Positions 33,922 to 44,015 of a stretch of 64,000 bases of DNA are shown one piece after another (position 1 is the first letter of the stretch; every line of letters starts with the position of its first letter). This DNA comes from Alistipes ihumii AP11. Lineage in GTDB: Bacteria; Bacteroidota; Bacteroidia; Bacteroidales; Rikenellaceae. Location of the stretch: NCBI RefSeq assembly GCF_025144665.1, contig NZ_CP102294.1, positions 2,356,001-2,420,000 of the forward strand, given 5' to 3'. The translations under genes and the position numbers were made by a program. The notes beneath the pieces were generated by a model that had not been told where the DNA came from, did not search any database, and saw nothing but the letters and a program-made list of their open reading frames with translations.

Positions 33922-34380
33922 CTACTTCCCGCATCCGCATCCCGAAACCGGGATCTTGTCGATCCGGCGCTGGTGCCGGCCGCCCTCGAACTCGGTCGAG
34001 AGGAAGGTGTCGACGATCCTGATCGCCGTGTCGCGGTCGATGAAGCGGGCGGGCATGGAGCATACGTTCGCGTCGTTGTGCTTGCGCGCGAGCGACGCGA
34101 TTTCGGGCTCCCAGCAGATCGCCGCGCGGATACCCTGATGCTTGTTCAGCGTGATCGTGATGCCGTTGGCGCTGCCACACATCGCGATGCCGCGCGGAAG
34201 CTCTCCCTTTTCGATCGCCTCGGCCAGCGGGTGCGCGTAGTCGGGGTAGTCGCAGCTCTCCTCGCTGTGGCAGCCGAAATCGTGCACGTCGTAGCCTTTC
34301 GAGTCGAGGTAGCCGATGATGAATTCCTTGAGCTGGTAGCCGGCGTGGTCGCTGGCGATACCGATTTTCTTATCGTCCAT
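33922..34380 (-). CDS. rpiB: Ribose-5-phosphate isomerase B
   Basis: Interconverts ribose 5-phosphate and ribulose 5-phosphate in the pentose phosphate pathway. 152 residues: KKIGIASDHAGYQLKE, DFGCHSEESCDYPDYA, then MCGSANGITITLNKHQGIRA with the catalytic Cys and the phosphate loop, and NDANVCSMPARF. A weak -7 box (34418-34425, one mismatch) precedes it. It lies directly downstream of the his operon; ribose 5-phosphate feeds PRPP for histidine, so the neighbourhood makes metabolic sense, though the 69-bp gap suggests separate control. Confidence 0.96.
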   Translation of the reverse strand: MDDKKIGIASDHAGYQLKEFIIGYLDSKGYDVHDFGCHSEESCDYPDYAHPLAEAIEKGELPRGIAMCGSANGITITLNKHQGIRAAICWEPEIASLARKHNDANVCSMPARFIDRDTAIRIVDTFLSTEFEGGRHQRRIDKIPVSGCGCGK

Positions 34381-34449
34381 GTCGTTCGTTGTTAGCTGAA
34401 TGGTTTGAATACGGTCCTAAAGGTAGCAAAATATCCGCATTTTGCGTGC

Positions 34450-35052
34450 CTATTTGTGCCTTTTGGCCAGTTCCTCCTCCAGATCGGCGATCGACAGGCC
34501 CTGATTCTCGAGCAGCACGAGCAGGTGGTAGATCAGGTCCGATGCCTCGTAAACCAGATCGGGATTGTTGTTCGCAACGGCCTCAATGACGGTCTCGACG
34601 GCTTCCTCGCCCACCTTTTGCGCGATTTTGGCCGCTCCTTTCGTAAAGAGCTTCGTCGTGTACGAACCCTCGGGCATGTCGCGGTGACGTTGCCGGATCA
34701 CCGACTGCAGCAGCCCGATGAAGCCCTCGTTCTCGCGGCCGCCGAAGCAGGTCTTGCTTCCCGTGTGGCAGACCGGGCCTGCCGGAACGACGCGGATCAG
34801 TAGCGTATCCGCATCGCAGTCCTTTGCGATGCTTTTGACATGCAGATAGTTGCCGCTCGTTTCGCCTTTGGTCCACAGCCGGCCTTTCGTGCGGCTGAAG
34901 AATGTGACGCGGCCTTCGGCCACCGTTTTGTCGAATGCCTCTTCGTTGAGGTAGCCCAGCATCAGGACCTGACGCGTGTCGTCGTCCTGAATGATGGCGG
35001 GAACCAGTCCCTCGCAGCTCTTGGCTGTGTTCAGTTCGCTGAATTTTATCAT
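34450..35052 (-). CDS. hisIE: Bifunctional phosphoribosyl-AMP cyclohydrolase / phosphoribosyl-ATP pyrophosphatase
   Basis: Catalyses steps 2 and 3 of histidine synthesis. HisI domain, residues 1 to about 105: [33 protein letters not shown], and the zinc/magnesium ligands DCDADTL and [10 protein letters not shown]. HisE domain, about 110-200: a MazG-like helical fold with [11 protein letters not shown] and [10 protein letters not shown]. 200 residues, normal for the fusion. The ATG overlaps the hisF stop by 4 bases. It is the last gene of the operon. Confidence 0.97.
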
Positions 35053-35804
35053 AATCTGACGGTTATATGCTGTTCGTACAATTGTCGCTTAAGTGATGGA
35101 ATGGGTATTTCGCCGTAGTGGAAAATGCTGGCTGCCAGCGCGGCATCGGCTTTGCCGAGTGTCAGCACATCGGCGATGTGCCGCACCGATCCGGCCCCGC
35201 CCGAGGCGATAACGGGAATCGACAACCGCTCCGACAGCCGGGCGTAGGTGTCGCACGGGTAGCCGTTTTTCGTCCCGTCGTGGTCCATCGACGTGAACAG
35301 AATCTCGCCCGCTCCGCGCCGTTGCGCCTCGGCGGCCCAGGAGAAAAGCTCCCGGTCGGTGAGCCGGCGGCCGCCGTGCGTCGTTACGCGCCACCGGCCG
35401 TCAGCCTGCTTGGCGTCGATCGCGACGACGACGAACTGGCTGCCGTATTTCGAGGCGATGTCGCTGATGAGCTCCGGATTGCGCACGGCGGCGCTGTTGA
35501 CCGTCACCTTGTCGGCTCCGGCGGCGAGCAGTCGTCCCGCGTCCTCGACCGATGCGATGCCGCCGCCGACGGTGAACGGAATATTGATCCGCTCAGCGAT
35601 GCGGGTGACCAGCTCGGCGAATGTGCGCCGGCCCTCCTGCGTCGCGCTGATGTCGAGGTAGACCAGCTCGTCGGCTCCCTGTTCGGCGTAGCGTCGCCCC
35701 AGTTCGACCGGGTCGCCCACGTCCTTCAGACCGAGAAAGTTGATCCCCTTGACGGTTTGTCCGTCCTTGATGTCGAGGCAGGGTATGATGCGTTTGGCTA
35801 ACAC
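35049..35804 (-). CDS. hisF: Imidazole glycerol phosphate synthase, cyclase subunit
   Basis: (beta/alpha)8-barrel partner of HisH that closes the imidazole ring and releases AICAR. 251 residues with the catalytic Asp pair in [13 protein letters not shown] and VVAIDAKQ, plus phosphate loops VGGGIAS and ASGGAGS. The start codon is GTG (GTG TTA GCC). A 140-bp gap separates it from hisA, while every other junction of the operon overlaps or is under 10 bases. No promoter box or terminator is visible in that gap. Confidence 0.97.
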
Positions 35805-35944
35805 GTTTCTGTCGTTTTATTCGGGTTATCTCGTTCCGGACCGGATTTTCCGATACCGGAGGGTTTCGTTTCGGGCGCGGCCTCCTGCCGTTACGCTTTC
35901 GGTCGGGTGGCCGACGGCGGAGTTCGGGTATTGCGCCCCTTGCT

Positions 35945-36679
35945 TTACCGCTCGGCCGCGCCGTAATGCGTTTCCAGCCGGTCGAAGCCGATCCGGCCCT
36001 CGTAAATCGCCTTGCCGACGACGACGCACGGCACGCCCGCTCGGTCGAGCTCTTCGATGTCGTCCCACGAACTGATGCCGCCGCTGGCGGTCAGTTCGAT
36101 CCGGGGAAAACGTTCGAGCAGTTTCCGGTACAGGTCGACCGACGGGCCCGACAGCATGCCGTCTTTGGCGATGTCGGTGCAGATTACTTGCCGCAGGCCG
36201 CTGTCTGCGAACCGTCCGATCAGTTCCTCGACTCCGATTGCGGAGGCTTCCTGCCAGCCGTTGACGGCGACGCGGCCGTCGCGGGTGTCCGCCCCGAGCA
36301 CGATCCGCTCCGGGCCGAACTCGGTCAGCCACTGTCGCAGCAGGTCCGGCCGGGCGACGGCGATGCTTCCGCAGATCGCTCGCGAAGCCCCCGAGCCGAA
36401 CACGTCGCGCAGCGCCTCGGTGCTTTTGATGCCGCCGCCGTATTGCACTTCGAGCGAGGTGCGTGCGGCGATCCGCTCCAGCACGCCGAGATTGGCCGGA
36501 CGGGAGGCTTTCGCCCCGTCCAGATCGACCAGGTGCAGACGTCCTGCGCCGCACTCCTCGTACCGCAGGGCGGCGTCGAGCGGATCTTTGTAATAGGTGG
36601 TCTTCCGGTCGTAGTCGCCCTGTGTGAGCCGGACGCACTGGCCTCCGATCAGGTCGATGGCGGGAATGACTTCGATCAT
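35945..36679 (-). CDS. hisA: 1-(5-phosphoribosyl)-5-[(5-phosphoribosylamino)methylideneamino]imidazole-4-carboxamide isomerase
   Basis: Step 4 of histidine synthesis, an Amadori rearrangement of ProFAR to PRFAR. 244-residue (beta/alpha)8 barrel related to HisF: VIPAIDLIGGQCVRLTQGD with the first catalytic Asp, VQYGGGIKS, VLGADTRDGRVAVNGW with the second, and TASGGISSWDDI near the end. The ATG overlaps the hisH stop by 4 bases, so coupling is likely. The frame continues far upstream but without HisA sequence. Confidence 0.97.
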   Translation of the reverse strand: MIEVIPAIDLIGGQCVRLTQGDYDRKTTYYKDPLDAALRYEECGAGRLHLVDLDGAKASRPANLGVLERIAARTSLEVQYGGGIKSTEALRDVFGSGASRAICGSIAVARPDLLRQWLTEFGPERIVLGADTRDGRVAVNGWQEASAIGVEELIGRFADSGLRQVICTDIAKDGMLSGPSVDLYRKLLERFPRIELTASGGISSWDDIEELDRAGVPCVVVGKAIYEGRIGFDRLETHYGAAER

Positions 36680-37257
36680 AGTCTCAAAAAGTTTTGCAGG
36701 ATGCGCTCGCCGACCGAAGCGCTCTTTTCCGGGTGAAACTGCGTTCCGAAGAAGTTGTCGCGCCGGATCGCGGCGCTGAACGTCTCTCCGTAGGTCGTCC
36801 GGGCGATCGTGTCGGCGTTCGTCTGCGGCGCGTAGGAGTGGACGTAGTAGACGTATGCGCCTTCGTCGAGGCCGTCGAACAGCGGCCCGCGCAGGTCTTC
36901 GATACTGTCCCAGCCCATGTGGGGCACTTTCAGCCCTTCGGTCCGGAGTCTGCGGACCTCGTTGTCGAAAATGCCGAGGCATTCGGTGTCGCCCTCTTCG
37001 CTGCGGCGGCACAGCAGCTGCACGCCGATGCAGATGCCCAGCACGGGGCATTTCAACGAGCGGATCACGTCCGGAAGTCCGCGCTCGCGTAGCTTGGCCA
37101 TCGCGCTGGAAGCCTCGCCGACGCCCGGAAGCAGGACCCGTTCGGCCGCTCGAATCGCGGCCGGGTCGGCCGTAATCCGGTATTCGGCTCCCAGCCGTCC
37201 GAGGGCGTTGGCCACCGAACGGAGGTTGCCCGTGTCGTAGTCGATGATCGTAATCAT
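36676..37257 (-). CDS. hisH: Imidazole glycerol phosphate synthase, glutamine amidotransferase subunit
   Basis: Class I glutaminase that supplies ammonia to HisF. 193 residues: [16 protein letters not shown] at the start, [12 protein letters not shown], the nucleophile Cys76 in [12 protein letters not shown], and [10 protein letters not shown] with the His-Glu of the triad. The usual motif is GICLGMQ; here Ile and Val replace Leu and Met near the Cys, a mild change. Start ATG 37257 overlaps the hisB stop. Confidence 0.96.
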
Positions 37258-38378
37258 AGCGTTCCTTTGCTGCTCGGCAGCTCGAAATGAAAGTTGTCGC
37301 GCGCGATGGCGGTGCGCAGCGCGCGCGCGAATGCCTTGAATATCGCTTCGATCTTGTGGTGCTCGTTCTCCCCTTCGGCCTCGACGTACAGGTTGCAGCG
37401 GGCCGATTCGGCGAGGCTCTTGAAGAAGTGGCGGAACATTTCGGTCGGCACGTCGCCGACGTACTCGCGAGAGAAGCGGGCGTTCCAGACCAGCTCGATG
37501 CGTCCGCCGAAGTCGAGCAGCACGGCGGCCCGGCACTCGTCCATCGGCAGGCAGAAGCCGTAGCGGCCGATGCCGAGCTTCGATCCGAGCGCTCGGCGGA
37601 TCGCCTCTCCGAGCGCGATGGCCGTGTCCTCGATCGTATGGTGCTCGTCAACCTGCAGGTCTCCCCGGACCTGCAGGTCGAGCGATATGCCGGCGTGATG
37701 CACGATCTGGTCGAGCATGTGGTCGAAAAACTTCAGTCCGGTGTCGATCCTCGACGTCGAACTGCCGTCCAGATCGAGGCGGACCCGGATGTCGGTCTCC
37801 CGCGTGCGTCGCTCGACGACGGCCGTGCGCTCTCCGGCGCGCAGGAACTGCCATATCCGGTCCCAGTCGTCGGTAATCAGCGCGCAGACGTCCGACAGAC
37901 CGCTCTGCTCGGCCATGCTCCGTCCCTGCTCCGTCTCGCGCAACAGGATCGCCCTCGCGCCGAGGTTGCGCGCCAGCTCGACGTCCGTCAGCCGGTCGCC
38001 GATCACGTAGGAGCCTTTCAGGTCGTACCCGCCCGCGAGGTACCGGCCGAACATTCCCGTGCCGGGTTTGCGCGTCGGGGCGTTCTGCTCGGGCAGCGTG
38101 CGGTCGATCAGGACGTCGTCGAAATGTACGCCTTCGCCCTCGAGTGTCTTGATAATCAGGTTCTGAACGGGCCAGAACGTCTCCTCGGGAAACGATTCGG
38201 TGCCGAGGCCGTCCTGATTCGTGGCCATGACCAGTTCGAAGCCGAGCGTCGCGATGCGGCTCATCGAGCCGATGGCCTTCGGGACGAACTCGAGCTTGCC
38301 GAACGAGTCGAGCTGGTAGTCGACGGGCGGCTCCACGACCAGCGTACCGTCGCGGTCTATGAAAAGGACGCGTTTCAT
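37254..38378 (-). CDS. hisB: Bifunctional histidinol-phosphatase / imidazoleglycerol-phosphate dehydratase
   Basis: Fusion as in E. coli. Residues 1-165 form a HAD phosphatase: [15 protein letters not shown] with the nucleophile Asp, [10 protein letters not shown], and [14 protein letters not shown]. Residues about 180-374 form the manganese-dependent dehydratase: [43 protein letters not shown] and a second EHHKIEA. 374 residues. It performs steps 6 and 8 of the pathway. ATG overlaps the hisC stop by 4 bases. Confidence 0.97.
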
Positions 38379-39415
38379 GCGGTTTCGTTTTTCAGCGTTT
38401 CGATCAGCCGGTCGTTCTGGGCGGGCGTGCCGATCGTGATGCGCAGACAGCCCTCGCAGCCCGCGACGCGCGAGCGGTCGCGTACGATGATTCCCTCGCC
38501 GATCAGCCGCTCGTACACGCCCCTCGGATCGTCGAACCGGGCGAGCAGGAAATTGGCTTGCGACGGGTAAATCTTCCGGACCGCAGGCAGCGTGCGCAAC
38601 GCCTCGGCCACCCGCTCGCGCTCCGAGACGATCTCGGCTACCTGACCGTCGATGCTTGTCTCCAGCCGTTCGAGCACGGCCCGCTGCGTGATGACGTTGA
38701 TGTTGTACGGGTATTTCACGCGGCTCAGCGTTTCGACGATCTCTTCCTGAGCGAATGCGAGCCCGAGCCGCAGCCCGGCCATGCCCCACGCCTTGGAGAG
38801 CGTCTGCAAGATAATCAAATTCGGGAAGCGGTCCAACTCGCCGAGCAGGCCCGGCGTGTCGGCGAAATCGATATAGGCCTCGTCGAGCACGACGATGCCG
38901 GGGAACGTGCGGACGATGCGCTCGATCTGCGCGCGCGGGAAGCAGTTGCCCGTCGGGTTGTTCGGCGAACAGAGCAGCAGCAGCCGCGTATCGCCGTCCG
39001 TCGCCGCGAGCAGCTTCCGCTCGTCGAGCGAGAAGTCGGGCTCGAGCGGAACCTCGCGCATCGGCACGTCGTTGATCGCGGCGGCCACCTTGTACATGCC
39101 GTAAGTCGGCGCGATCGACACGGCGTTGTGCAGTCTCGGTTCGCAGAAAATGCGGAATGCGAGATCGATCGGCTCGTCCGATCCGTTGCCGACGAATATT
39201 TTCTCCGGGGCGACGCCCTTGATTTCCGACAGGCGCCGCTTAAGCTCGCGCTGCCGGGGATCGGGATAGCGGTTGCAGCCGTTGTCGTAGGGGTTCTCGT
39301 TCGCGTCGAGGAAGATGCCGAGTTCGCCTCGGTACTCGTCGCGGGCCGTCGAGTAGGGGGCCAGCGAACGGATGTTCGGGCGATAGAGTTCGCGTATGTC
39401 CATATCGTTCTTCAT
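38375..39415 (-). CDS. hisC: Histidinol-phosphate aminotransferase
   Basis: PLP-dependent fold-type I aminotransferase, step 7. 346 residues: [47 protein letters not shown], and the PLP-binding Lys in [19 protein letters not shown] 39415 (MKND) is taken; a second in-frame ATG four codons on (MDIREL) is equally plausible. The gap to hisD is 9 bases. Confidence 0.97.
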
Positions 39416-39424
39416 AACGTGTCC

Positions 39425-40705
39425 TTACAGGGATTCGAGGCGGATCGTCACGGCGTTGCGGTGCGCGTCGAGGCCCTCGGCCGAGGCCATCGTCTCGATC
39501 GTCGGGCCGAGGCCGCGCAGTCCGTCGGGCGTGATCTGCTGATAGGTGATCTTGCGGAGGAAGCTGTCGAGGTTCACTCCGCTCATCGAGCGGGCCCAGC
39601 CGTAGGTCGGCAGCGTGTGGTTCGTTCCCGAGGCGTAGTCGCCGGCGCTTTCGGGCGTGTAGTTGCCCAGAAAGACGCTTCCTGCGGCCGTGATGCGCTC
39701 GGCGACGGCCCACGGCTCCTCGACCGACAGGATCAGGTGCTCCGGCGCGTAGGCGTTGCTCATCTCGATCATCTCGTCCGGAGAGTCCAGCACGACGATA
39801 CGGCTGTTCTCGATCGCGAGCGCGGCCGTTTGCCGGCGAGGCAGCGCGGCGAGCTGTCGCTCCACTTCCCGGGCGACTTGCTCGGCCAGCCCGCGCGACG
39901 GAGTGAGCAGGACGGTCTGGGAGTCGGGCCCGTGCTCGGCCTGCGACAGCAGGTCGGCGGCCACGAATGCCGGAACGGCCGTCGAATCGGCCATGACGAG
40001 CACTTCGGAAGGCCCGGCCGGCATATCGATCGCAACGGAAGACGAGGCGACCTGCTGCTTGGCAGCCGTGACGTACTGGTTGCCCGGTCCGAAAATCTTG
40101 TCTACGCGCGGGATGCTCTGCGTGCCGTAAGCCATCGCTCCGATCGCCTGCGCGCCGCCTGCCTTGAATATGCGCCGGACGCCTGCGATCGACGCCGCAT
40201 ACAGCACGGCGGGGGCTACGCTTCCGTCTTTCTGCGGAGGGGTGCACAGCACGATCTGTTCGCAGCCGGCTACGCGGGCCGGAACGGCCAGCATCAGCAC
40301 GGTCGAGAACAACGGAGCCGATCCGCCCGGCACGTAGAGCCCGACCCGTCGGATCGGCACGGCCCGCTGGAGACACCGCACGCCGGGAGCCGTTTCCAAA
40401 TCGACCGTCCGAGGCCGCTGGGCGGCATGGAACCGTTCGATATGCTCGGCCGCCGTCGCGATGGCACGTTTGAGTTCGGGCGAGACGGCCGCTTCGGCCC
40501 GTTCGATCTCTTCGGGCGCGACCTCGAGCGAGTCGAGCGCGACCGAGTCGATCTCGGCGGTCAGATCGAGCACGGCCCGGTCGCCTCCGGCGCGGACCCG
40601 TTCGAGTATGGCCGCCACCCGCTCGCCGATGACCGGCGCGTCGATCTGCGGACGGCGGAGCAGATCGGCCCACTCGCTTTTTGGGGGATTCACCGTAATT
40701 CGCAT
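39425..40705 (-). CDS. hisD: Histidinol dehydrogenase
   Basis: Zinc enzyme for the last two oxidation steps to histidine. 426 residues: YVPGGSAPLFSTVLMLAVPA, KIFGPGNQYVTAAKQ, DMPAGPSEVLV, and SQAEHGPDSQ with the Gln and His zinc ligands. SGTNHTLPTYGWAR is near the end. ATG 40705 shares its A with the hisG stop (TGATG). The frame runs on upstream into hisG but without HisD sequence. Confidence 0.97.
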   Translation of the reverse strand: MRITVNPPKSEWADLLRRPQIDAPVIGERVAAILERVRAGGDRAVLDLTAEIDSVALDSLEVAPEEIERAEAAVSPELKRAIATAAEHIERFHAAQRPRTVDLETAPGVRCLQRAVPIRRVGLYVPGGSAPLFSTVLMLAVPARVAGCEQIVLCTPPQKDGSVAPAVLYAASIAGVRRIFKAGGAQAIGAMAYGTQSIPRVDKIFGPGNQYVTAAKQQVASSSVAIDMPAGPSEVLVMADSTAVPAFVAADLLSQAEHGPDSQTVLLTPSRGLAEQVAREVERQLAALPRRQTAALAIENSRIVVLDSPDEMIEMSNAYAPEHLILSVEEPWAVAERITAAGSVFLGNYTPESAGDYASGTNHTLPTYGWARSMSGVNLDSFLRKITYQQITPDGLRGLGPTIETMASAEGLDAHRNAVTIRLESL

Positions 40706-41556
40706 CAGCGTATCATTTTTTCGAGCGACAGCACCAGAATATCCTCGGCCCCGATCGCCTTGAGTTGTTCGATTTTGCTCCACAGCTCGCGTTCGTTGAT
40801 TACGACGTGCATCGAGCTCCAGCCCTCCTGCGCCAGCGGCAGGATCGTCGGACTTTTCATGCCGGGCAGAATGCGCACGGCCTCGGGTATCTTCGCGTGA
40901 GGCAGGTTCATCAGCACGTACTTCAGGCCCCGGCTGCGCTCGACGGCCTCGATTCGGAACAGCAATTGCGAGAGGATCTGCCGCTTGTCGTCGCTCAGCG
41001 CACGGCCGCCTATGAGCACCGCTTCCGAGAAGAGTACCTGCTCGACCTCCTTCAGCCCGTTGGTGACGAGCGTGCCGCCCGAGCTGACGATATCGAAAAT
41101 CGCGTCGGCCATGCCGACCGACGGGGCGATTTCGACCGAACCGGCGATTTCATGGATTTCGGCCGCTATGCCTTTCTCCCGGAAGAAGCGCGACAAGATG
41201 ACCGGATAGGACGTGGCGACGCGTTTGCCTTCGAAGTACGACAGACCGTCGTAGGGCTCCGTTTTCGGGACGGCCAGCGACAGCCGGCACTTGCCGAATC
41301 CGAGCCGGTGGACGATTTCCACGTCGAAACCTTTCTCCTCGACTTCGTTCAGGCCGACGACTCCCAGGTCGGCCACGCCCATCGACACGGCCTGAGGAAT
41401 ATCGTCGTCGCGCAGGTAGAGCACTTCCAGAGGGAAACCGTCGCTGCGCGCGAGCAGCTTGCGCTTGCTGTCCTCGATCGATACGCCCGCCTCGGCGAGC
41501 AGTCCGATACTCTCTTCGTTGAGCCTTCCTTTGGCTTGAATCGCTATTCTCAGCAT
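40705..41556 (-). CDS. hisG: ATP phosphoribosyltransferase, long form
   Basis: First committed enzyme of histidine synthesis (ATP + PRPP). 283 residues, the long form with a C-terminal ACT-like regulatory domain (from about 210, ILPGMKSPTILPLAQEGWSSMHVV) that binds histidine. Catalytic-domain motifs: LRIAIQAKGRLNEES, GVADLGVVGLNEV, RVATSYPVILSRFF, and the PRPP loop DIVSSGGTLVTNGL. Long HisG does not need HisZ. Control is doubled: feedback by histidine on the protein and transcription attenuation in the leader at 41584-41721. Confidence 0.97.
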   Translation of the reverse strand: MLRIAIQAKGRLNEESIGLLAEAGVSIEDSKRKLLARSDGFPLEVLYLRDDDIPQAVSMGVADLGVVGLNEVEEKGFDVEIVHRLGFGKCRLSLAVPKTEPYDGLSYFEGKRVATSYPVILSRFFREKGIAAEIHEIAGSVEIAPSVGMADAIFDIVSSGGTLVTNGLKEVEQVLFSEAVLIGGRALSDDKRQILSQLLFRIEAVERSRGLKYVLMNLPHAKIPEAVRILPGMKSPTILPLAQEGWSSMHVVINERELWSKIEQLKAIGAEDILVLSLEKMIR

Positions 41557-41583: not shown

Positions 41584-41620
41584 TAAAAAAAGCGAGGCAC
41601 CGTTTTCGGTAAGCCTCGCC
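41584..41620 (-). terminator. his operon attenuator terminator
   Basis: On the minus strand a stem GCGAGGC (41613-41619) pairs with GCCTCGC (41592-41598), and an inner stem ACCG/CGGT (41607-41610 with 41599-41602) closes a four-A loop. A TT bulge separates the two stems. Seven T follow the stem. It lies between the leader peptide and hisG, 28 bases before the hisG ATG. Its inner left side (41607-41615) can instead pair with 41662-41670. Confidence 0.9.
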
Positions 41621-41661
41621 GTATGAGTTGAATCTCGCTTCGCGTTCAGACAGACGCCATC

Positions 41662-41670
41662 GGCCTACCG
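41662..41670 (-). promoter_or_regulatory. Antiterminator strand of the his attenuator
   Basis: Minus strand CGGTAGGCC, including the leader UAG stop, pairs with GGCUUACCG (41607-41615) with one G-U pair, which would disrupt the terminator. A ribosome stalled on the His run (41686-41700) leaves this strand free; a ribosome at the stop codon covers it. Confidence 0.75.
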
Positions 41671-41721
41671 GTGCTTCCGGGAGCGGTGATGGTGGTGATG
41701 AAAGCGGCTATTGAGAATCAT
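41665..41721 (-). CDS. hisL: his operon leader peptide
   Basis: 18-residue peptide MILNSRFHHHHHRSRKHR with five consecutive His codons (CAT CAC CAC CAT CAC, 41700 to 41686) and a sixth at codon 17; stop TAG. It begins about 18 bases after the predicted transcription start and lies upstream of the attenuator terminator. The arrangement is that of a classical ribosome-stalling leader: low charged tRNA-His stalls the ribosome, frees the antiterminator strand and lets polymerase reach hisG. It is too short for usual gene callers. Translation itself is inferred from the design. Confidence 0.9.
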   Translation of the reverse strand: MILNSRFHHHHHRSRKHR

Positions 41722-41742
41722 GTTTTCGACTTCTGACAGTGA

Positions 41743-41772
41743 CAAAGGTAGGGTAAAAAAGTAAAAAACCAA
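41743..41772 (-). promoter_or_regulatory. Promoter of the his operon
   Basis: Minus strand TACCTTTG (41743-41750) is a perfect -7 box; TTGG at 41769-41772 stands 18 bases upstream as a partial -33 box. That -33 box lies in the foot of the terminator hairpin of the preceding gene. Transcription should begin near 41739. Confidence 0.7.
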
Positions 41773-41830
41773 GCGATTGTCGGATATTTAACAAAAAACG
41801 CTCTTTTTGCATATCCGACAATCGCTCGGT
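41755..41830 (-). terminator. Terminator after the alpha-galactosidase gene (both strands)
   Basis: A 16-bp perfect stem, AGCGATTGTCGGATAT (41772-41787) with its complement (41811-41826), extended by ACC/GGT past one mismatch; 23-base loop. T-rich tracts follow on both strands (minus: GGTTTTTTACTTTTTT). It ends the alpha-galactosidase transcript just before the his promoter. Confidence 0.88.
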
Positions 41831-41933
41831 TTTTCGTTCGGATTCTCCGTATCCCCGCTCGGGAAGGGCGTCGCGTTCCGTCCGCCTTTTATGGAAAGAA
41901 GGCTCTCCTACGATTCCCGGAGCGGATGCGGGT

Positions 41934-44015
41934 TTATTCCCCTGCTTCCGAATAGCGCAGCAGCAACGAGCCCGGCGCCTCGGCGATCTGCAGGTCGATG
42001 CCCTCGGCCAGCTCCGCGCCCGAGCGGGTCGTGACCGTTCCGTCGTTGTCGTTCAGCACTCGGTAGGTCTTCGCCGGATCGACGCCCCGCAACCGGACGC
42101 GGATCGAGCCCTGCTGATTGTCCTTGCGGCGGAAGGCGACGACGATGCCGCTCCGGTCCGACGGGCGGTGCATCTGGTAGGCGAGCCATGCATTGTCGAA
42201 GGTCAGCTCGCGGGCCGTTCCCGTCAGCGGATAGTAATCCTCGTAATAGTAAGGCCGGAGCTCCTTGTATTGGGCGATGATCTGTTGCATGTCGGCGATC
42301 GAGCCTTCGAGCACGTTGAGCTTCCAGTTCAGCACGGCGGCGCTGCCGAGAGCCGAGCGGACGCTGTACGGATCGGTCTTGTAAAGACCTGTGCCGTGAA
42401 TCGGCAGGTAGAAATTCAGTCCGTAGGTATGGCACTGATAGCCGTTCACTTCTCCGTAGCTGTAGTCGGTCCGCCACAGCGGAGCGCTGCGCGACATGGT
42501 CTCCAGATCGAGACGCCGTCCGCCTCCCGCGCAGTTGTCGATCAGCAGGCCCGGGAAACGTTCGCGCAGATAGTCCCAGTAGGCGTACAGGCCCTCGACG
42601 TGCCGAATTTCGTGGATGCCCACCCGGTCGGGCTCGTCGGCTTCGGCCCAGTAGGGGCTGATATGCATGTTGAAGTCCTGACGATAATAGTCGATGCCGT
42701 TTTTCTCGATCAGGTCGCCGATATGCTCGCACATCCAGTTGAGCGCTTCGGGGTTGCCCAGATCGAACAGCAGATTGTTCGGATCGTTCGAACGCTTGAG
42801 CAGCCATTCGGGATGTTCCTCCGCGATCCGGCTGCCTACGGCGACGCGTTCGGGTTCGAACCATACCATGAACTTGGCGCCGGCTTCGTGCGCGGCTTCC
42901 GACAGCGGCTTCAGTCCGTTCGGGAAACGCTTCTCGTCCACCTCCCATGTGCCTACCGTGTTATACCAGTTTTTCCCCGTGAAGTCGGGGCCGCCGCATC
43001 CCTTGTACCATCCGGCGTCGAGCCAGAAGACTTCGGGCACGATGCCGAACTGGGCGTAGCGCTTGGTCAGCGCGAGGGCGAAATCTTCTGTCAGGCAGCA
43101 GTACTCGTTGCAGGGTGCGGGATCGCCCCAGCTGTATCCGCCCGAGAACGGATATTCGGCGAAGCGGCCGTTCAGTTTGGGCGAATGGTGGGCGAGCATG
43201 AAACGGCGGAACGTGTTATGGCCGACCATGCGGTCTTCGTCCTGCCAGAACAGCATGCATACGAGCGGCGTGCGGATCGTCTCGTCCGGCAGCAGGTAGA
43301 GGTTCATGTTCTTCATGCCCGAGGCCAGCGTCGCGGTGCCGGGCGTCTGCTGCGATACGTCGACGTACCAGTTGCCGGTCCAGCCGACGGCGACGATCGC
43401 GCCCCGTCCGTCCGATGCCTCGAGATTCATGAACGGAAATCCGGTATGGTCCGACGAGCGTCCGCCTTCGGGGGTGATATAAACCGATTTGTCCGTTTCC
43501 ACCGGCGTCGACAGCGGCCAGAAGTCGTCGCGGCCGCCGTTGCTTCCCACGGCATGGTGCAGCGTGAAGGAAGCGTCCTTTCCCGCCTCCATGCCGAAAT
43601 CGGTGACCTTGACGTCGGTCAGCATGGCGGAGTTGCGCTGCGATGTATTCGTAAAGTACAGCATCCACTCGACGGCGCCGAACTCCTCGAAGCCCGTGAC
43701 ACGGCAGGCTACTTTCAGACCGGTGACGGGATCGGTGTAGGTGAACAGGTATTTGATCGTTCCCGCTTCGTCGCTCGCTCCCTTGCTTGCCGAGTATTTC
43801 CATTTGCGGATGAACTGGGCCGACGGCTTGCCGTCGTAGACGAACGAGAAGGGAGGAACGTGTCCTTTGGCGAAAACCGTCTTGATCCAGCGCTCCATGT
43901 CCTCGGGAACGGCCATTCGTTGCCGGCTCTGGCTTTTGCCGGCCGAAGGCAGCAGAACGAACAGCGCCACGAGGGCGAGCAGTCCGATGCGTGCCTTTGC
44001 ATACATTCGATTCAT
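41934..44015 (-). CDS. Secreted alpha-galactosidase, GH36 type
   Basis: Removes alpha-galactosyl ends from raffinose-type or galactomannan glycans, probably in the periplasm. 693 residues with a signal peptide (GLLALVALFVLLPSAGKS). An N-terminal beta-sandwich is followed by the barrel from about residue 290: VFWLDAGWYKG, FMVWFEPERV, the nucleophile Asp in GIDYYRQDFNM, and DNCAGGGRRLDLE with LWRTDYSYGE for the acid/base. A C-terminal beta domain ends the chain. Closely related GH27 is less likely given length. Start ATG 44015 or 44006; a good promoter lies at 44050-44081. No transporter or other glycan gene adjoins it. Confidence 0.92.
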   Translation of the reverse strand: MNRMYAKARIGLLALVALFVLLPSAGKSQSRQRMAVPEDMERWIKTVFAKGHVPPFSFVYDGKPSAQFIRKWKYSASKGASDEAGTIKYLFTYTDPVTGLKVACRVTGFEEFGAVEWMLYFTNTSQRNSAMLTDVKVTDFGMEAGKDASFTLHHAVGSNGGRDDFWPLSTPVETDKSVYITPEGGRSSDHTGFPFMNLEASDGRGAIVAVGWTGNWYVDVSQQTPGTATLASGMKNMNLYLLPDETIRTPLVCMLFWQDEDRMVGHNTFRRFMLAHHSPKLNGRFAEYPFSGGYSWGDPAPCNEYCCLTEDFALALTKRYAQFGIVPEVFWLDAGWYKGCGGPDFTGKNWYNTVGTWEVDEKRFPNGLKPLSEAAHEAGAKFMVWFEPERVAVGSRIAEEHPEWLLKRSNDPNNLLFDLGNPEALNWMCEHIGDLIEKNGIDYYRQDFNMHISPYWAEADEPDRVGIHEIRHVEGLYAYWDYLRERFPGLLIDNCAGGGRRLDLETMSRSAPLWRTDYSYGEVNGYQCHTYGLNFYLPIHGTGLYKTDPYSVRSALGSAAVLNWKLNVLEGSIADMQQIIAQYKELRPYYYEDYYPLTGTARELTFDNAWLAYQMHRPSDRSGIVVAFRRKDNQQGSIRVRLRGVDPAKTYRVLNDNDGTVTTRSGAELAEGIDLQIAEAPGSLLLRYSEAGE

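Follow-up and report, generated by a model that had tools for sequence, protein, structure and literature searches.

A probable ribosome-mediated transcription attenuator with a five-histidine leader peptide upstream of the his operon in Bacteroidota

Organization of the his locus and its leader region

The window analyzed here, a stretch of DNA of 64 kb, carries a complete his operon on the minus strand. Its first gene, hisG (40705–41556), is of the long form, as had been predicted from the letters of the DNA, and the ORF contains both the HisG and HisG_C domains of Pfam. The remainder of the operon (33922–40705), delineated by ORFs and Pfam domains, follows in the order hisD, an aminotransferase gene, hisB, an amidotransferase gene, hisA, hisF, hisIE, and rpiB. 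The aminotransferase occupies the hisC place and the glutamine amidotransferase the hisH place, both names being assigned by position, and hisB has a HAD part according to Pfam.

Directly 5′ of this operon lies a His leader whose tandem codons specify the amino acid that the operon produces. On the minus strand, a promoter box, the leader ORF, a spacer, and a terminator precede hisG, which runs from 41556. A base-by-base reading located the −7-like box TACCTTTG (TAnnTTTG) at 41750–41743, the position originally proposed; TAnnTTTG is what we take to be the −7 consensus of Bacteroidota. A putative −33-like TTG of the his promoter (41772–41770) is situated 19 nt 5′ of the box. The leader peptide ORF MILNSRFHHHHHRSRKHR, with its UAG, extends from 41721 to 41665 and has 18 codons before the stop. 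Re-reading recovered the predicted run of five consecutive His codons (CAT CAC CAC CAT CAC, 41700–41686), the candidate regulatory stall site, as well as a sixth His codon (41673–41671). The stop codon UAG (41667–41665) is embedded in the antiterminator 5′ strand CGGUAGGCC (41670–41662). This strand forms nine pairs, one of them G-U, with the shared strand GGCUUACCG (41615–41607), in agreement with the pairing to the left side of the terminator that had been proposed. Alternatively, the outer and inner parts of the shared strand pair with the 3′ arm of the terminator. The intrinsic terminator itself occupies 41620–41585, with a hairpin at 41620–41591 (computed at −18.7 kcal/mol) followed by seven T at 41591–41585. 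The original prediction, which placed the terminator at 41584–41620, was correct in the hairpin but not in the end, since 41584 is an A.

The whole leader folds with a z-score of −2.31 against shuffles, and the segment 3′ of the stop codon, folded alone, with a z-score of −1.28. Simple consensus scans yielded one promoter-like match (0.2 expected) and two terminator-like matches (1.1 expected), both weak by themselves.

Farther upstream, between the his promoter and an upstream ORF that ends at 41934, the window contains a 31-nt inverted repeat. Its arms (41764–41794 and 41804–41834) are 87% complementary, lie 9 nt apart, and are bordered by A and T runs, and the repeat as a whole (41764–41834) looks like a two-way terminator. 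The −33-like TTG sits within one of the arms.

Uniqueness of the His run and of the leader

Across both strands of the window, the His run of the leader is the sole run of at least four CAY codons. Similarly, the leader is the one short ORF among 612 scanned (8–40 codons) that has at least four His within six codons. In the 2.78-Mb genome, five consecutive CAY codons match four times at three places, compared with zero matches for a reversed control pattern; the two places outside the leader fall within open frames of 152 and 363 codons. The His run before the his operon is not a chance occurrence. In the 152-codon open frame (L239, C1:451718 of the window's genome), a run of six His follows a hydrophobic stretch.

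Furthermore, we built a covariance model of the leader from a 60-row alignment of relatives and searched it in 40 genomes, including the window's own, in which it gave one match. All 21 full-length matches (at least 39.7 bits) in these 40 genomes are located 5′ of hisG. Many of these loci are members of the training set, and at least three (L220, L222, and L226) are from other genomes, with HisG 57–60% identical. Most of the weaker matches are incomplete and span the terminator half.

Conservation and covariation among relatives

Relatives were collected in two ways. A HisG search against named contigs gave 234 loci, of which the best 80 were taken, and a family search found HisG in 56 of 101 genomes, the window's own included, from which 30 loci were obtained. 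The two sets overlap and several contigs occur twice; therefore, the resulting 110 loci are partly redundant. Judged by HisG, the nearest named relatives among the best 80 of 234 are MAGs that carry the labels Alistipes and Rikenellaceae, at most 86% identical, in a listing that may omit records of the window's own genome.

According to strict criteria, a His stretch and a terminator occur in the right order at 81 of the 110 partly redundant hisG loci. The original prediction had offered the absence of the His run or of the terminator from close relatives as evidence against itself; both are present at these 81 loci. The other 29 were left out on several grounds. Three have 58 nt or less of upstream sequence. 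Four have leaders located 390–460 nt upstream, and the terminator search covered the last 260 nt; in one of these four genomes (L225), the covariance model later recovered the element. At one locus the wrong hairpin was chosen, and at seven a terminator is present with a weaker or degenerate His stretch. Finally, two loci carry a terminator with no leader seen, and no leader was seen at twelve more.

Once near-duplicates had been removed, 60 rows remained for the alignment, which revealed both the His runs and the compensatory pairs that had been anticipated. For the nine antiterminator pairs, 85.0% of the 540 cells are paired, against 30.9–51.9% in slid controls. Moreover, 43 cells are doubly changed, compared with 16.7 ± 4.6 in shuffles, and none of 500 shuffles reached this value. 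Two weaker measures barely rise above shuffles: six pairs show double changes against 4.3 (equalled by 45 of 500 shuffles), and 19 further pair types occur against 17.5 (equalled by 47 of 500). When the antiterminator is extended to 11 pairs, 79.7% of cells remain paired, with slid controls at or below 50.6%. The 11 terminator pairs are 92.4% paired over the same rows (slid controls at or below 63.3%), with 106 doubly changed cells against 32.1 in shuffles, while shuffles do equally well for further pair types of the terminator (233 of 500). Across the rows, the middle strand thus retains pairing with two partners, which is a hallmark of a switch. When the duplex was tested against shuffled spacers, 42 of the 60 Bacteroidales rows reach p ≤ 0.05 and 18 fall short.

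The predicted location of the UAG inside the antiterminator strand holds in the window, and its position varies among relatives. The stop codon falls within this strand or adjoins it in 34 of the 60 rows, lies upstream in 4, and is found more than 10 nt downstream in 22. For these 22 rows, it is not evident that a ribosome at the stop codon would mask the strand. GGUAGG is retained in rows such as L025, L034, and L037 despite being read as sense codons, indicating that the RNA element is conserved beyond the use of its stop codon. Longer leaders, in which the GGUAGG element is read as sense codons and the stop codon lies approximately 25–35 nt beyond it, were observed in L025, L034, L035, L037, L038, L049, and rows like them. 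The leaders of relatives diverge widely outside the His stretch, and the frame, the stretch, and the RNA helices persist.

The promoter box and the start codon are likewise conserved. The count covered the 57 rows whose leader starts with ATG and is preceded by at least 170 nt. Of these, 55 carry TAnnTTTG in the 90 nt before the leader ATG, compared with 0 of 57 for a stretch further upstream and 4 of 57 for the other strand, and 49 of the 55 box-bearing rows have a TTG 15–26 nt upstream of the box. In the broader phylum set, TAnnTTTG is found upstream of the leader in 40 of 64 cases against 3 and 3 in controls. In 57 of 58 relatives, the ATG closest to the His stretch shares its reading frame; two rows have no ATG within 60 nt. 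Collectively, reading of the window and comparison with its relatives demonstrate the ORF, both helices with their covariation, and the promoter box, and confirm that the promoter box, 18-codon leader, antiterminator, and terminator 5′ of the his operon are real.

Modelled switching and proposed mechanism

Which helix forms in which ribosome state was modelled by constrained folding, on the assumption that the ribosome covers 9 or 12 nt past the A-site codon. As long as the terminator 3′ arm has not been made, a ribosome at any of His1–His5 is predicted to leave 8.9–9.0 of the nine antiterminator pairs formed, while a ribosome at His6 or at the stop codon leaves none. This is the switch that folding with and without the leader arm engaged had been expected to give. 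The original prediction noted a sixth His codon besides the run; in the model, a ribosome there leaves 0.00 antiterminator pairs. This codon is too near the antiterminator strand to help, and a ribosome stalled there would mask the strand instead of freeing it.

In the full-length equilibrium fold with a ribosome at His1–His5, the antiterminator has 0.07–6.24 pairs and the terminator 1.51–6.76. The terminator wins at equilibrium for most stall positions, and the choice must therefore fall during transcription. Among the 60 relatives, at least five antiterminator pairs form before the 3′ arm exists in 53 with the ribosome stalled, in 0 with it at the stop codon, and in 27 with no ribosome. The folding blocks everything 5′ of the ribosome, so the stop-state result is overstated for the 22 rows with a downstream stop codon. 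The window's own leader, without a ribosome and before the 3′ arm, has 4.17 antiterminator pairs, or 7.2 with another assumed 5′ end.

We also considered a protector helix, in which the His codons pair with the stretch after the stop codon. It appears in the window's predicted fold and is not conserved over the 60 rows; since 27 of the 60 relatives form the antiterminator without a ribosome, protection against untranslated leaders is not a conserved property.

Based on these observations, we propose that the element is a ribosome-mediated transcription attenuator of the his operon, with a probability of roughly 0.9. It has a tandem-codon leader ORF, an intrinsic terminator, and a mutually exclusive antiterminator that shares the terminator's 5′ arm, and in the folding model the position of the ribosome chooses the helix. 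RNA polymerase would start a few bases 3′ of the box at 41750–41743, and a ribosome would translate the leader. With charged His-tRNA in short supply, the ribosome would stall on 41700–41686, and its footprint would leave 41670–41662 free. This strand could then pair with the newly made 41615–41607 before the terminator 3′ arm is made, allowing transcription into hisG. With abundant His-tRNA, the ribosome would reach the UAG at 41667–41665 and mask the antiterminator strand, so that the terminator (41620–41585) forms. Inferred components of this scheme are the point where transcription starts, the translation of the leader ORF, and the histidine response. The logic originally proposed, in which stalling on the His codons favors readthrough and a ribosome at the stop codon favors termination, is supported by the constrained folding, the covariation in 60 relatives, the promoter box, and the in-frame start.

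A premature terminator, or a source of short RNA, that does not sense histidine and whose accompanying His run is incidental would agree with the terminator forming in every full-length model without a ribosome (at least five pairs in 59 of 60). However, no second such His run occurs in the window, the stretch is in frame with an ATG in nearly all relatives, and the antiterminator that shares the terminator's 5′ arm covaries, all of which make such an element very unlikely. Polyhistidine binds metals, and the leader peptide itself might act, either as a His-rich metal-binding peptide that senses metal ions or in trans. Some attenuator peptides are reported to be active in trans (PMC7298713). 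Against an acting peptide stand the wide variation of the residues that flank the stretch, which contrasts with the persistence of the frame, the stretch, and the RNA helices, and the fact that the operon makes histidine; we judge it even less probable than a terminator without sensing. The slightest chance falls to a T-box or another known riboswitch class. T-boxes are described as controlling his genes in Firmicutes (PMC9413887), but no Rfam family reaches its gathering score anywhere in the window, and the four matches of the leader at E ≤ 10 belong to unrelated families and lie far below these scores. A ribosome-mediated attenuator remains the reading that we prefer.

Comparison with known attenuators

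The function and the logic of the element are textbook and its mechanism is ordinary. The enteric his attenuator (hisL; RF00514) likewise combines a short His-rich leader ORF, an antiterminator, and an intrinsic terminator with hisG as the first gene. The enteric leader consists of six segments, A–F, which form helices A:B, C:D, and E:F or, alternatively, B:C and D:E. In the window, by comparison, one antiterminator helix and one terminator helix were identified, with the stop codon inside the antiterminator strand and with no protector helix conserved over 60 rows. The proposed equivalence to enteric his control holds for the logic; the layout looks simpler and trp-like. The trp attenuator (trpL) is a switch of three strands, the middle one of which is masked when a ribosome reaches the stop codon of the leader. 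Compared by layout, the window's element shares this arrangement but has His codons and his genes, and the protector (1:2) helix is not conserved.

The standard RNA-family model misses the arrangement found in most of the sampled Bacteroidota relatives. RF00514 (His_leader) did not match the leader of the window even at E ≤ 10, and had no match above the cut-off in 99 phylum genomes, where strict filters were applied and part of the candidates were scored. As controls, Escherichia coli and Corynebacterium glutamicum were both matched, one of the two above the cut-off. Weaker matches were observed in 4 of the 99 phylum genomes; these five matches (36–37 bits) are not at hisG and perhaps represent other attenuators.

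An abstract by Vitreschak et al. (2004, FEMS Microbiol Lett) reportedly mentions attenuators in Bacteroidetes/Chlorobi. A structured hisG 5′ element without an Rfam hit is reported for Flavobacterium psychrophilum and other Flavobacteriaceae, together with strong indications of attenuation by leader peptides upstream of operons for amino-acid biosynthesis (PMC9723704). Since such a hisG element and such attenuation have already been suggested for Flavobacteriaceae, the system is of a known kind. The phylum and the gene are the same as in the window; the paper's text prints no sequence that could be compared, and in several of the sampled genomes from that class the antiterminator is of another type, CUCAGGCGAG-like. 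The reported his attenuators of the Bacillus cereus group, Peptostreptococcaceae, and Erysipelotrichales resemble the window's, by description, in having 3–5 His codons in a row, a terminator, an antiterminator, and no RF00514 match, but belong to a different phylum (PMC9413887). For Bacteroides thetaiotaomicron, a published map describes leader-peptide-like short ORFs in long 5′ UTRs, in a main text that does not contain the word histidine (PMC7366714), and the text of a study on the his genes of this superphylum uses attenuation once, about enterics (PMC8305728). In the literature covered, which includes few subscription papers, we found no description for Rikenellaceae or other Bacteroidales.

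His-rich leaders across Bacteroidota

Less expected are the breadth of the arrangement across the phylum and the terminator-less His leaders of some families. HisG was found in 252 of 296 phylum genomes. We read 89 of these genomes, comprising 29 newly obtained best-scoring loci and 60 hand-picked ones, mostly of different genera, in a sample confined to HisG above about 41% identity. By the rule used, 73 of the 89 have a His-rich leader, and four further leaders appear likely by eye. This proportion suggests that a large phylum is absent from the current picture of his attenuation. A terminator is present in 52 of the 73, and in 40 of these 52 the antiterminator reaches p ≤ 0.05, with approximately 3 expected by chance. 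The antiterminator sequence types differ among groups, including GGUAGGC, CUCAGGCGAG, and GCGCCGGU. The 21 leaders without a terminator belong to eight f24 genomes, one f43 genome, six f3 genomes, four f10 genomes, L155, and L197; in three other f10 genomes, the terminator is present.

One joint reading is that His-leader sensing is ancestral to Bacteroidota and that the output part has been exchanged between lineages. Most lineages would then use an intrinsic terminator with lineage-specific antiterminators, and f24/f43, f3, and the four f10 genomes would use a second output without one. We hold this reading tentatively and regard it as possible but rather doubtful. If it were true, the terminator-less His leaders would imply an undescribed second output, Rho-dependent or translational. 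The covariance model that finds the element in relatives, a concrete hypothesis for the tuning of his genes to histidine supply in these bacteria, and a natural series for the study of attenuator evolution are the yields of this comparison.

In the nine f24/f43 leaders, an intrinsic terminator was looked for and not found. The region of up to 90 nt after their stop codon is C-rich, G-poor (C 0.27, G 0.09), and unstructured. For comparison, 41 upstream stretches from five of these nine genomes, five of which are hisG itself by position, have mean values of C 0.21 and G 0.15, and some at other genes are equally extreme. These leaders may contain a Rho site, but the C-richness is not clearly above that of other 5′ regions and the effect of starvation would have the wrong sign: the His codons are C-rich, so starvation would expose the RNA favored by Rho. 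These f24/f43 leaders often have a GTG start a few bases after the TAnnTTTG box. The six f3 genomes also have a His-rich leader in which a terminator was not found. The final His codons of these leaders can pair with the sequence immediately 3′, and in several a conserved GATAATGTATGTTTCTACGCGAAATAACAACC-like block follows.
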